Assembly (NCBI RefSeq): GCF_032401055.1
Contig: NZ_CP135529.1
Span: 5,888,501-5,952,500, forward strand
DNA length: 64,000 bases
Origin: Tardiphaga sp. 709
Lineage (GTDB): Bacteria; Pseudomonadota; Alphaproteobacteria; Rhizobiales; Xanthobacteraceae
Direction: 5' to 3'
Within the stretch, counting starts at the first letter, position 1. Each line of letters begins with the position of its first letter. The position numbers and the translations under genes were made by a program. Below, one piece after another: positions 27,963-30,707 of the stretch. The notes under the pieces are model-generated. The model saw only the letters and a list, made by a program, of their open reading frames with translations. It had not been told where the DNA came from and did no database searches.

Positions 27963-28046
27963 AAGCCCACAAAGGAATAAAGTCTAAAATTCTACTTGCC
28001 GGGCCATTCAGGATGTGAGCTTATTATCCTAAATGGAGTCGCCCCG

Positions 28047-28643
28047 ATGAAAACGTCCCGCAGCACCACCAGGCATCCCGATCACGTCGATCACCATCGC
28101 GCGCAGCATCTGTCGCTGGAAACGCGGCAGATACTCACCGAGGACGGCGTCGCCAGCGTCCTCGTCAATGACAGTGAAAGCCCGCTCGGCTGGCTGGCCC
28201 GGCGCAAGGGCCGCGATGGCCGCAGCATGATCAGCCCGCATCAGTTCATCGCCGGCGAAAAGCTGCGCGCCGATTTCACGCGCGGCAACATGGCGCCGCG
28301 CATGACGGCGAACTGGGCCGCGCCGACCGGCGGCCGACCACGCGGGGCCGGCAGCAGTCCCGGCGAGATGACGGACGTCATGGTGACGTCGCGCCAGCGC
28401 GTCAGTCAGGCGCTGGAGGCCTGCGGGCCCGAATTTTCAGGGGTTTTGATGGACGTGTGCTGTTTTCTGCGCGGCCTCGAAGACGTCGAGCGTGAACGCA
28501 ACTGGCCGGCGCGCTCCGCCAAGGTCGTGTTGCAACTCGCGCTGGATCGCCTCGCGCGGCATTACGGCTTCGCCAGTGAGGTCAGGGGACAGCCATCGCA
28601 AGTGCGAACCTGGCTCGCAGATGATGCGGCGTTCGAGAGCTAG
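28047..28643 (+). CDS. DUF6456 domain-containing protein
   Basis: The 198-residue protein starts at the ATG at 28047, preceded by GGAGTCGCCCCG. It resembles DUF6456 proteins of Rhizobiales. The middle reads SPLGWLARRKGRDGRSMISPHQFIAGEKLRADFTRGNMAPRMTANW, and the C-terminal half contains RQRVSQALEACGPEFSGVLMDVCCFLRGLEDVERERNWPARSAKVVLQLALDRLARHYG. The spacing suggests a helical DNA-binding fold like phage-type regulators, but this is inference. No membrane segment. Confidence 0.8.
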   Translation: MKTSRSTTRHPDHVDHHRAQHLSLETRQILTEDGVASVLVNDSESPLGWLARRKGRDGRSMISPHQFIAGEKLRADFTRGNMAPRMTANWAAPTGGRPRGAGSSPGEMTDVMVTSRQRVSQALEACGPEFSGVLMDVCCFLRGLEDVERERNWPARSAKVVLQLALDRLARHYGFASEVRGQPSQVRTWLADDAAFES

Positions 28644-28762
28644 GCCATGGACTCAATCGCACGCAGCCAGATGCGGATGGATGCGAGCTTGACGGCGGCC
28701 AGGTCGTTGGCCGCGCTCACAGGCCCGCGCATCATCGTTTCCGCGACGCCAAGCGGCTTGCG

Positions 28763-28791
28763 TTGACGCCTGTGCGTTTTGCCGCCATATA
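28763..28791 (+). promoter_or_regulatory. Candidate promoter of the thr-type attenuator leader
   Basis: TTGACG (28763-28768) is followed after 17 bases by CATATA (28786-28791). TATACA at 28788 with a 19-base spacer is an alternative -10. Either places the transcription start within a few bases of the leader ATG at 28798. That implies a leaderless or nearly leaderless transcript, as known for the rhizobial trp leader. This is sequence inference only. Confidence 0.5.
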
Positions 28792-28797
28792 CAGCGC

Positions 28798-28875
28798 ATG
28801 AACGAGCTTCGATCAGCTGCATTGACCACCACGGCGACCGCTCACGGCGGATCGCCTTCTGGTCGCGCGCGCTAG
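28798..28875 (+). CDS. Threonine-rich leader peptide (attenuator uORF)
   Basis: This 25-residue ORF reads MNELRSAALTTTATAHGG and then seven more residues, ending at TAG 28873-28875. Codons 10-12 and 14 are ACC, ACC, ACG and ACC, four Thr codons in five. They lie just before and within the first strand of a hairpin set that ends in the terminator. No Shine-Dalgarno is seen, consistent with leaderless translation. Its expected role is to stall ribosomes when charged tRNA-Thr is scarce and so allow transcription into the downstream ThrRS gene. Confidence 0.75.
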   Translation: MNELRSAALTTTATAHGGSPSGRAR

Positions 28876-28907
28876 AGACAAGCGTACTTCAACCAGAAAA
28901 GGCCCCG
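28834..28907 (+). promoter_or_regulatory. Threonine attenuator: pause and antiterminator strands
   Basis: Strand 1 GCGACC (28834-28839, overlapping the last Thr codon) pairs with GGTCGC (28861-28866). Between them a small GGCG/CGCC stem strengthens the pause hairpin. Strand 2 GCCTTCTGGT (28854-28863) can instead pair with ACCAGAAAAGGC (28892-28903), ten pairs with a two-base bulge. That segment is the left arm of the terminator. The two folds exclude each other, as in classical amino-acid attenuators: a stall at the Thr codons masks strand 1 and favours the antiterminator. Confidence 0.75.
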
Positions 28908-28937
28908 CCGGCGACGGACGGGGCCTTTTCTGTTTTT
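28894..28937 (+). terminator. Intrinsic terminator of the attenuator
   Basis: CAGAAAAGGCCCCG (28894-28907) and CGGGGCCTTTTCTG (28919-28932) form a perfect 14-bp stem with an 11-base loop, followed by TTTTT at 28933-28937. It lies between the Thr-rich leader ORF and the ThrRS gene, 43 bases before its ATG, on the same strand. Its position inside the leader, not after a gene, marks it as a regulated terminator. Confidence 0.92.
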
Positions 28938-28979
28938 GATGATCCCCGTCCGCGCTTTTCCCCTCGTAAGGACACAGCA

Positions 28980-30191
28980 ATGGACGATCTCGATCACAGA
29001 AATCTCGGCATACAACTCAAACTCTGGCACCTACAGGACGATGCGCCGGGCATGGTGTTCTGGCATCCGCGTGGCTACGCAATCTATCGGGTGCTGGAGG
29101 ACTATCTCCGGCGCAAGATGCGTCAAGCCGGCTATGCCGAGGTCCAAACACCACAGCTGCTGCCAAAGGAGTTCTGGAGCCGCAGCGGCCACTGGGACAA
29201 ATTCCGCGAGCACATGTTCCGGGTCGAAGACGGCGAGCAGACGATGGCACTGAAGCCGATGTCATGCCCTTGCCACGTGCAGATCTTCAACAAGGGTCTG
29301 CGCTCGTGGCGCGAGCTTCCAATCCGCTATGCCGAATTTGGCGCTTGCCACCGCAATGAGCCATCCGGTTCGCTCCACGGCATCATGCGAACGCGCGCCT
29401 TCGAGCAGGACGATGCGCATGTGTTCTGCCGCGAGCAGGACGTGGAGGACGAAGTCGCGCGCTTCATCGCTTTGCTGGGCGAGGTCTATCGCGATCTTGG
29501 TTTTCCCGACTACGAAGTGGCGCTGTCGACGCGTCCGGCGGTGCGCGCTGGCGACGACGCGACGTGGGACTGGTCGGAGGCGAAGCTCGGCGATGCCGCG
29601 CGGCAATGCGGCCTCGCGCCTCAAATCAATCCTGGCGAAGGCGCGTTCTACGGACCGAAGCTGGAATTCGCGTTGCGCGACCGGCTGGGACGATCCTGGC
29701 AGTGTGGCACGGTGCAGCTCGACAGCGTTCTCCCGCAGCGGCTCGACGCGTCCTACATCGCCGCCGACGGCAGCCGCGCAAGGCCCCTAATGATCCACCA
29801 CGCGATCTTCGGATCGTTCGGCCGCATCATCGCGATCCTGCTCGAGCACCACGGCGGCGTGCTTCCTTTCTGGTTGTCGCCGGATCAGGTCGCGGTTGCG
29901 CCGATCTCGAAAGATCAGGCCGCATACGGCGCTGACGTTGCGGCGGCGTTCGAGGATGCGGGGATTAGGGCCGTTGCCTATGACGGCGCCGATACGCTTT
30001 CGCGGCGCATCGTGGCGGCGCATGACATGGCCGTGCCGGTGATGGCTATCGTCGGCGGGCGCGAGATGAGGGACGGCCGGGTGAGCCTGCGCGAGCGCGA
30101 TGGCTCGCAGGCCGGCGTTCCTCTGGCCGAGGCGGTGTCTCGCCTGCAGGCGAGGGCGCGGTCGGGCGCGCTTGGCGCTGAAGCACGATAA
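28980..30191 (+). CDS. Short threonyl-tRNA synthetase paralog (no TGS/editing domain)
   Basis: The 403-residue protein covers only the class II catalytic core and anticodon-binding domain of ThrRS. The N-terminal TGS and editing domains of bacterial ThrRS (~640 residues) are absent. Motif 2 is RYAEFGACHRNEPSGSLHG with Arg125, and motif 3 lies around FGSFGR with Arg282. The three zinc ligands are present: Cys96 (MSCPCHV), His147 (QDDAHVF) and His273 (MIHHAIFGS). All suggest an active enzyme. AAGGA precedes the ATG. It is preceded by a Thr-codon leader and terminator, so expression should rise when charged tRNA-Thr falls. A housekeeping thrS is expected elsewhere. Confidence 0.9.
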   Translation: MDDLDHRNLGIQLKLWHLQDDAPGMVFWHPRGYAIYRVLEDYLRRKMRQAGYAEVQTPQLLPKEFWSRSGHWDKFREHMFRVEDGEQTMALKPMSCPCHVQIFNKGLRSWRELPIRYAEFGACHRNEPSGSLHGIMRTRAFEQDDAHVFCREQDVEDEVARFIALLGEVYRDLGFPDYEVALSTRPAVRAGDDATWDWSEAKLGDAARQCGLAPQINPGEGAFYGPKLEFALRDRLGRSWQCGTVQLDSVLPQRLDASYIAADGSRARPLMIHHAIFGSFGRIIAILLEHHGGVLPFWLSPDQVAVAPISKDQAAYGADVAAAFEDAGIRAVAYDGADTLSRRIVAAHDMAVPVMAIVGGREMRDGRVSLRERDGSQAGVPLAEAVSRLQARARSGALGAEAR

Positions 30192-30263
30192 ACGTGCGTC
30201 AGCTGCGCTCCGATCAGTGGATCCCTGGCGGGCGTTTGGCGCAGCGCCTGCGGACGCTCGAGC

Positions 30264-30707
30264 CTATGGGGTCACGCCCTGGTTCGCATCTGCCAGGGTC
30301 TCCGTGGCGTCCCGGCGGATGCGCTCGACCATGGCACGCAGGCCGTTGGAGCGCTGCGGCGTGAGGTGTTCCTTGAAGCCGAGCTCGTCGAACACCTTGA
30401 TGGCGTCGGTGGCCAGAATATCCTCGGCTTTGCGGCCCGAATACAGCGTCAGCAGGATCGCGATCAGCCCGCGAACGATATGCGCGTCGCTGTCGCCGAG
30501 ATAGCTGAGCACCGGCGTGCCGTGGTCGCGGGCGACCTGGCGCGACAGCCAGACCTGGCTCGCGCAGCCGTTGACCTTGTTGGCGGAGGAATGTTCCTCA
30601 TCCGGCATCGGCGTGAGGCTGCGCCCGAGTTCGATGACGTACCGGTAGCGGTCGTCCCAGTCCTCGAGTAGCTCGAAATTATCGCGGATATCGTCAATCG
30701 TGGTCAT
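30264..30707 (-). CDS. sufE: SufE family Fe-S cluster assembly sulfur acceptor
   Basis: This SufE-like protein accepts persulfide sulfur from the cysteine desulfurase SufS and passes it to the Suf scaffold. The signature Cys lies in ANKVNGCASQVWLS near residue 50, followed by GDSDAHIVRGLIAILLTLYSGR. The ATG at 30707 gives 147 residues; a TTG four codons earlier is possible. It is alone here, with the rest of the suf operon elsewhere. Cytosolic. Confidence 0.93.
   Translation of the reverse strand: MTTIDDIRDNFELLEDWDDRYRYVIELGRSLTPMPDEEHSSANKVNGCASQVWLSRQVARDHGTPVLSYLGDSDAHIVRGLIAILLTLYSGRKAEDILATDAIKVFDELGFKEHLTPQRSNGLRAMVERIRRDATETLADANQGVTP

Follow-up and report, generated by a model that had tools for sequence, protein, structure and literature searches.

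Why would a bacterium that already possesses a full-length threonyl-tRNA synthetase (ThrRS) carry a second, shortened one, and why does a terminator preceded by a short reading frame crowded with Thr codons stand in front of that gene? This question is raised by a locus on the forward strand of a 64,000-nucleotide (nt) stretch of DNA from Tardiphaga sp. 709, the whole of which is called the window here. Our results make it very probable that the leader is a ribosome-mediated transcription attenuator, read through its Thr codons, which controls an auxiliary ThrRS without an editing domain. An earlier note, made from the sequence of the window, had pointed to such an attenuator; this observation is confirmed and is larger than was described. 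Beyond it lie a probable leaderless start of the mRNA, further pairings 3' of the terminator and the use of the same leader in front of other genes. The parts of the locus, in their order along the DNA, are as follows.

28763..28768, + strand: TTGACG, -35 box of the leader promoter, 35 nt 5' of the leader ATG (sequence)
28786..28791, + strand: CATATA, -10-like, starting 12 nt and ending 6 nt 5' of the ATG (sequence; putative -10 role)
28798..28875, + strand: leader open reading frame (ORF) of 25 codons, MNELRSAALTTTATAHGGSPSGRAR, probably on a leaderless mRNA (sequence)
28823..28842, + strand: region 1, partner of region 2 in the pause hairpin 1:2 (folding, shuffle and swap tests)
28825..28839, + strand: sensor, codons 10-14, ACC ACC ACG GCG ACC (Thr Thr Thr Ala Thr)
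28846..28866, + strand: region 2, GGCGGATCGCCTTCTGGTCGC, partner of region 1 or 3 (shuffle and swap tests)
28892..28910, + strand: region 3, ACCAGAAAAGGCCCCGCCG, partner of region 2 (antiterminator) or 4 (terminator) (shuffle and swap tests)
28894..28937, + strand: intrinsic terminator, 14 perfect pairs, 11-nt loop, T5 (sequence)
28911..28923, + strand: region 4, GCGACGGACGGGG, partner of region 3 or 5 (shuffle p 0.02; swap test)
28944..28955, + strand: region 5, CCCCGTCCGCGC, 3' of the terminator (shuffle and swap tests)
28968..28972, + strand: AAGGA, Shine-Dalgarno site of the ThrRS gene (sequence), in relatives part of region 6
28980..30191, + strand: short ThrRS, 403 amino acids, catalytic core and anticodon domain (Pfam, NCBIfam)

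Most of what the earlier note had claimed for this leader stands. The 25 codons at 28798-28875 hold four Thr in a run of five (codons 10, 11, 12 and 14), the pause hairpin 1:2 is present before the ThrRS gene, and the perfect 14-bp terminator with its T5 is found at 28894-28937, the hairpin proper spanning 28894-28932 with the T5 after it. The antiterminator 2:3 is also present, but it is longer than the 10 pairs claimed, because GGCGG in the leader also pairs with CCGCC in the 5' arm of the terminator. The 146 nt from 28795 to 28940 fold with z = -6.7 relative to 200 dinucleotide shuffles, and none of the 200 shuffles reached 1:2, 2:3 or 3:4 of the window; for 4:5, which amounts to -25.6 kcal/mol, p is 0.02. 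The pattern TTGAC-N30-ATG-N20..50-ACNACNAC occurs once in the 64 kb, against 0.01 expected occurrences. A generic scan of the window did not list this + strand terminator, whose 11-nt loop exceeds the limit of 8 set in the tool. As CATATA ends 6 nt before the leader ATG, there is no space for a Shine-Dalgarno site of the leader.

Relatives were selected on the protein alone, from the best 80 of at least 581 stretches, from 18 genomes of the genus and from 391 genomes of the family, which gave 34 short-ThrRS loci with 33 distinct leaders; L126, whose leader is identical to that of L010, and L043, at a contig edge, were left out of the leader counts. The short gene is present in 3 of the 18 genomes of the genus and in 19 of the 391 of the family (2 of the 21 matches were full-length instead), and the named carriers comprise Bradyrhizobium, Burkholderia, Paraburkholderia, Inquilinus, Azospirillaceae, Acidocella, an uncultured bacterium and the myxobacterium Citreicoccus. 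The check that the earlier note had set, for orthologs lacking the Thr codons or the stems, did not go against the attenuator: a Thr-rich ORF, holding three or more Thr within 7 codons, is present at 33 of the 33 loci, and 31 have four or more. Every leader thus has the short ORF with a run of regulatory codons that characterizes ribosome-mediated attenuators. By reading frame, the leaders hold on average 4.97, 1.21 and 0.15 Thr, their own frame being the highest in all 33. All four Thr codons are used (ACC 117, ACG 39, ACT 5, ACA 3), and the length of the run differs between leaders, with interruptions in some, as TTTAT, TTTTTT and TATTKTTT show. In L166 the leader ORF extends beyond the usual stop.

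The promoter is conserved together with the codons. A single ORF combining the Thr run with TTGAC 35-37 nt before its ATG was found at 31 of the 33 short-ThrRS loci, a count in which 18 near-identical leaders of one group are not independent and in which TTGAC is favoured by the hand-picking of some starts among in-frame ATGs, partly by promoter. The same double criterion was satisfied by 1 of 79 full-length thrS loci (L051; 3 of 82 were dropped because their upstream stretch was unusable) and by 2 matches among 770 background stretches of the window, both of which are the window leader itself. When the rule was applied to every ATG of the short and full-length loci, 31 of the 33 short-ThrRS loci were again recovered. 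The position of TTGAC would place the start of transcription at or near the A of the ATG, and hence leave the leader without a Shine-Dalgarno site; judged by this spacing, the leader mRNA is probably leaderless.

The pairing map shows how the Thr codons are tied to the terminator. The Thr codons form region 1, GGCGG..CTGGTC is region 2, and ACCAG..GGCCCCGCC is region 3, which is also the 5' arm of the terminator. Region 4 (CGGACGGGG) pairs with region 5 (CCCCGTCCG), which is sited between the terminator and the gene; a second partner of region 5 in many relatives is region 6, the stretch of the Shine-Dalgarno site, as in CTCCGTTTG/CAAACGGAG (L013), GCTGTCC/GGACAGC (L128) and CTCCGTTTC/GAAACGGAG (L137). 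Among 52 leaders, a dinucleotide-shuffle p of 0.05 or less was reached by 1:2 in 30, by 2:3 in 43, by 3:4 in 48, by 4:5 in 31 and by 5:6 in 15, the values of the mis-anchored L009 for the last three pairings being void. In the same order, the counts are 18, 21, 22, 18 and 0 for the 23 Bradyrhizobium-type leaders, and 12, 22, 26, 13 and 15 for the other 29.

The species-swap test asks if each strand fits the partner from its own species better than that from another species (2000 permutations, with non-overlapping segments 5 and 6). For 22 representative ThrRS leaders, 0 of 2000 permutations matched the observed mean in any of the five neighbour pairings, and p for the ten non-neighbour pairings lay between 0.11 and 0.96. 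Leaders of the same kind in front of isochorismatase-like genes, described below, behave alike: in 27 of 30 candidates (L192, L199 and L211 were unplaced) the five neighbour pairings gave p ≤ 0.0005 and the ten controls p ≥ 0.23. These p-values are optimistic because related rows are included, but the test is not simply permissive, as the non-neighbour controls stay non-significant. The five neighbour pairings (1:2, 2:3, 3:4, 4:5 and 5:6) co-evolve and none of the ten others does, and the leaders have a mutually exclusive antiterminator and terminator in the order 1:2, 2:3, 3:4 that is proper to attenuators. This co-evolution suggests an alternating chain of hairpins that would join termination to exposure of the Shine-Dalgarno site, although the last link is unsupported in the window.

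The following course of events can be proposed. Transcription would start at or beside the leader ATG, and the leader would be translated as a leaderless mRNA. When Thr-tRNA is plentiful, the ribosome would reach the leader stop codon, whose position implies that region 2 is covered there, 3:4 would form and thrS would be off. When Thr-tRNA is short, through low threonine or a failing ThrRS, the ribosome would stall on the Thr codons; since these are situated within region 1, region 2 would be freed to pair with region 3, the terminator would be broken and thrS transcribed. Region 4, set free in this way, could go on to pair with region 5. For roughly half of the relatives that are not of the Bradyrhizobium type, region 5 is otherwise predicted to pair with the thrS Shine-Dalgarno site, and stalling would there favour translation too; this gating of translation is offered as a hypothesis for the groups with strong 5:6, to which the window does not belong. 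The product would be a spare ThrRS, whose uncorrected products could be edited in trans by the full-length enzyme. The further ideas of the earlier note, that this ThrRS is induced by threonine starvation and gives up proofreading to gain supply or withstands ThrRS inhibitors, are at present conjectural.

Equilibrium folding of 22 read-through leaders, with either nothing masked or the leader masked up to region 2, shifts in the direction that this course predicts. Without masking, the terminator prevails in 21 of the 22 leaders (means of 10.2 pairs for 3:4, 0.9 for 2:3 and 0.0 for 4:5); with masking, the means become 6.7, 10.6 and 4.0 pairs, respectively. Masking increases 2:3 in all 22 leaders; in 5 of them it also exposes the Shine-Dalgarno site by more than 0.2, and no leader shows a closing of that size.

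In addition to the relatedness of the leaders, the hand-picked starts and the optimistic p-values given above, several points weigh against the attenuator. On the one hand, the folding shift is often small: masking lowers 3:4 by more than 2 pairs in just 9 of the 22 leaders and raises it in L012, L148 has more 2:3 than 3:4 even without masking, and in the window 3:4 barely moves, from 13.0 to 11.7 pairs. Antitermination in the window must therefore rest on 2:3 forming before region 4 has been made, and by this modelling it would have to be kinetic in many leaders. On the other hand, the surroundings of the switch are not uniform. The generic sigma-70 scan of the window did not list the promoter, TTGAC is absent from its expected place in L009 and L011, and it is not at the usual place in L178, a locus found through the leader model and cut by a contig end, where the Thr leader MNPQRSVRDFVSVALTTTTTTSFGGSSGDRMR precedes a short ThrRS. 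Pairing 5:6 is unsupported in the window (p = 0.51 against shuffles) and beats shuffles in none of the 23 Bradyrhizobium-type leaders (the window included; L009 void); as a feature it was rejected for the window and its group and retained for the others (15 of 29). Finally, the stalling, the readthrough, the translation gating and the physiological role all stand here as predictions.

What kind of enzyme is placed under this control? In the 403-amino-acid protein Pfam finds the class II core and the anticodon domain only, neither the TGS nor the editing domain being found, and the NCBIfam model TIGR00418 (threonine--tRNA ligase) scores 451 bits against a cut-off of 384. The claim of a ThrRS paralog with an intact catalytic core thus holds. 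The comparison of 50 different short cores with 82 full-length ones, in E. coli numbering (L178 and identical proteins left out), shows that the Zn ligands C334, H385 and H511 and the substrate residues R363, Q381, D383, Y462, Q479 and R520 are kept in 50 of 50. The full-length thrS that the earlier note had proposed to look for is present in the same genome, 49% identical to the short ThrRS, and in all 37 short-carrying relatives checked the second match was likewise read as full-length, although that of genome G361 has an open frame of just 561 amino acids. In genome G931 (locus L170) the short gene itself is split into two pieces on different contigs.

Two differences adjoin Zn ligands: position 333 is Ser in 50/50 short and Asn in 82/82 full-length enzymes, and position 512 is His in 49/50 short and Arg in 81/82 full-length ones. 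In the absence of an editing domain, N333S and R512H might alter the discrimination between Ser and Thr. The anticodon-domain positions 575, 578, 583 and 585 also differ between the two classes. Together with the loss of TGS and editing domains, these class-specific changes can be read to mean that the short ThrRS has another substrate or task, such as another tRNA or a biosynthetic pathway, the attenuator merely reporting the use of Thr-tRNA; we consider this unlikely, given that the examined Zn- and substrate-binding residues are kept and that the ligase score is above the cut-off. The neighbourhood also speaks against a shared pathway, since among 16 loci no ORF family recurs in four or more, except ORFs in or overlapping the ThrRS gene; one family is common to three Paraburkholderia-type loci. 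A function in an operon or biosynthetic cluster was rejected on the same ground, and the leader and gene appear to move as a unit. In the window the flanking genes code for a DUF6456 protein on the 5' side and a SufE-type protein on the 3' side, the latter on the opposite strand.

As to the origin of the spare ThrRS, a tree from a quick search, built on 28 short plus 36 full-length cores and with long-branch flags on L077, L143 and E. coli, places the short enzymes on one side of a single branch with an SH-aLRT of 100. Truncation of the local thrS was considered and is unsupported, the short enzymes forming a clade apart from the full-length ones in this tree, and the mixing of Burkholderiaceae, Acidocella and Inquilinus within the clade indicates transfer between lineages. 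A plasmid search matched 102 records, of which the top three listed (57, 57 and 56% identity) are all large soil replicons; they align from residue 1 and look like members of the short family.

Leader-peptide attenuation is a classical mechanism, and the relation of the present element to known systems can be stated accordingly. E. coli pheST also has a leader-peptide attenuator, with Phe codons, on a tRNA synthetase, which is there the sole, full-length enzyme; to our knowledge it has no chain of hairpins reaching the Shine-Dalgarno site of the gene. In the E. coli thr operon leader (RF00506), Thr codons likewise precede a terminator, but that leader also has Ile codons and serves a biosynthetic operon instead of a synthetase gene. 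The B. subtilis thrS and thrZ genes are under T-box control, in which uncharged tRNA binds the RNA directly; there is no leader peptide there, whereas ribosome stalling in a leader ORF is predicted here, for a truncated enzyme found in Proteobacteria and one myxobacterium. B. subtilis thrZ is an earlier case of a second ThrRS gene that follows a leader terminator (PMC3997798, available part), by another mechanism; a title cited in that part refers to the induction of thrS after threonine starvation.

Attenuator RNA that starts at the leader ATG is described in Rhizobiales for trpL of S. meliloti, whose product rnTrpL can also act in trans (PMC7298713, available portions); in the present case the leaderless start is deduced from spacing, the codons are Thr and not Trp, the gene is not trpE(G), and counterparts of 4:5 and 5:6 are not described in those portions. 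Anabaena (T1/T2; PMC4787780, available portions) has an inducible second ThrRS, T2, that proofreads weakly and whose errors the first enzyme corrects in trans; T2 has a degenerate editing domain and is induced by zinc limitation via Zur, whereas here the editing domain is absent and control is predicted to run via Thr codons. ObaO is another second, special-purpose ThrRS of a proteobacterium, changed at the positions of Gly463 (to Ser) and Leu489 (PMC11252418, available portions). Resistance to obafluorin by the known ObaO-type substitution was ruled out for the short enzymes, since G463 is kept in 50/50, and L489, in 49/50, is also in the ordinary ThrRS state.

Searches for a described counterpart were negative. 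The Thr_leader model RF00506 scores 22.6 (+ strand) and 24.9 (- strand) in the window, far below its gathering threshold of 55 bits, and no Rfam family reached gathering either in this part of the window or in 20 related loci; the best sub-threshold matches (ctRNA_p42d, and Thr_leader on both strands) lie on the terminator palindrome and were set aside. No T-box was among the 12 matches at E ≤ 10 in 28000-30500, nor at gathering in the 20 related loci. Among the matches listed, no open-access title or abstract opening describes this element, most subscription papers lying outside that scope, and the main text of PMC2965389 mentions neither thrS nor isochorismatase. The attenuator is of a known kind; its arrangement and its set of genes are new.

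That set of genes became apparent with a covariance model built from 26 leaders. Of 398 genomes from the phylum, 39 gave a match (E ≤ 1e-3), as did 82 of 249 in family f66 (E ≤ 1e-4) and 14 of 148 in family f44. Family f66 is assigned to Burkholderiaceae from its position beside named sequences in the ThrRS tree, and f44 appears Pseudomonas-like. The 26 loci read comprise 5 short ThrRS, 4 isochorismatase-like, 6 DUF1127-type starts, 2 nucleotidyltransferase, 1 GNAT, 1 asd, 1 aspartokinase-type and 6 off target; a further 40 comprise 15 short ThrRS (L170 interrupted), 17 isochorismatase-like, 3 MFS (one a remnant), 3 GNAT with Met-rich leaders, 1 full-length thrS and 1 off target. The off-target loci (L151, L152, L155, L157, L158 and L159 of the 26; L198 of the 40) match at the terminator only, and several of 43 weaker matches are also off target, e.g. 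L222, L235 and L236. Pfam was run on one to three examples each of the isochorismatase, MFS, GNAT, nucleotidyltransferase, DUF1127, asd, DUF2917 and ABM genes, the rest being assigned by eye. A protein search for the isochorismatase in family f44 (E ≤ 1e-40) gave 12 places, all of which are leader-model loci.

The presence of related leaders before MFS transporter, GNAT, ABM and isochorismatase-like genes might suggest that the signal is a drug or a peptide motif which makes ribosomes stall on nascent chains rich in Thr, and not uncharged tRNA-Thr; some ribosome drugs show context effects at Ala, Ser or Thr. We regard this as quite unlikely: the run is variable and interrupted, as a codon sensor should be, a ThrRS would be an odd answer to a ribosome drug, and three leaders of the same design are Met-rich instead. 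Least probable is a plain terminator with a chance Thr-rich ORF, in which the strong primary-sequence conservation of CCCCGCCGG..ACGGACGGGG would serve a constitutive terminator or a small RNA working in trans as rnTrpL does (PMC7298713, available portions), since the Thr codons keep to the leader's own frame at all loci with synonymous variety, short and full-length loci differ so sharply in promoter plus Thr run, and the alternatives 1:2 and 2:3 co-evolve; the leader RNA may have an additional role in trans.

With the Thr-codon attenuator, the range of leader-peptide attenuation widens to a spare synthetase that lacks editing and to genes outside amino acid synthesis, and a single stalled ribosome may control both termination and access to the ribosome-binding site through alternating hairpins. 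With the leader also placed before a hydrolase and apparently captured, along with the first thrS codons, by a transporter, tRNA charging would act in these bacteria as a stress signal that reaches beyond amino acid supply. These features encourage us to ask if a leaderless RNA switch of six regions has spread as a module among the Proteobacteria, the Thr form being a defence against ThrRS failure: when ThrRS is poisoned or starved, the resulting stall would switch on the spare enzyme, a hydrolase of the isochorismatase type or the MFS transporter by opening both transcription and the ribosome-binding site, and versions with other codons, such as Met before GNAT, would guard other tRNA-charging steps. 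This bolder proposal is tentative and somewhat doubtful; if true, it would describe a tRNA-charging stress switch common to a spare synthetase and detoxification-type genes.

The individual settings of the leader can be briefly listed. Thr leaders precede isochorismatase-like hydrolases in Pseudomonas-like and Burkholderiaceae-like genomes, e.g. L138:1501-1676. An MFS gene with a thrS-derived start, behind an apparently captured leader, is found at L168:1485-1722 and in L165, with a remnant in L163. The L168 gene and the short-ThrRS locus L136 can be aligned for about 240 nt, a stretch that begins in the -10 region, includes the leader and reaches codon 17 of the gene; the transporter seems to have taken over the thrS leader and gene start. 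In L193, L197 and L200, leaders of the same design with Met replacing Thr (e.g. MNRFCRLNMMCLFMTASGGP) precede GNAT acetyltransferases; among ten GNAT relatives selected on protein, the Met leader is present in three, those with at least 60% identity.

Thr leaders also precede two full-length thrS genes (L051:5121-5180 and L175); the short enzyme is thus not the only type of ThrRS with this element. Nucleotidyltransferase-type proteins stand behind STTSTTT or STSTTT leaders in L153 and L156 (family f3), and ABM (antibiotic biosynthesis monooxygenase) domain proteins behind the Thr-rich leaders VTIITTTPISNGG and VTVITTTTIGNGG in L206 and L210. In Bradyrhizobium-like genomes (L141, L142, L144, L145, L149, L150 and L240), a leader ..NHMTRFGWAVGGVVR with a like terminator precedes DUF1127 or similar small proteins. 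Some of the weaker covariance matches precede DUF2917 and ABM genes, the DUF2917 leaders being rich in other residues. In Burkholderiaceae-like genomes (L214-L217, L220, L221, L223, L224, L226-L231 and L238), ..INHPMNA.. or similar leaders, sometimes two in tandem, precede short proteins that are of the DUF2917 type where examined.

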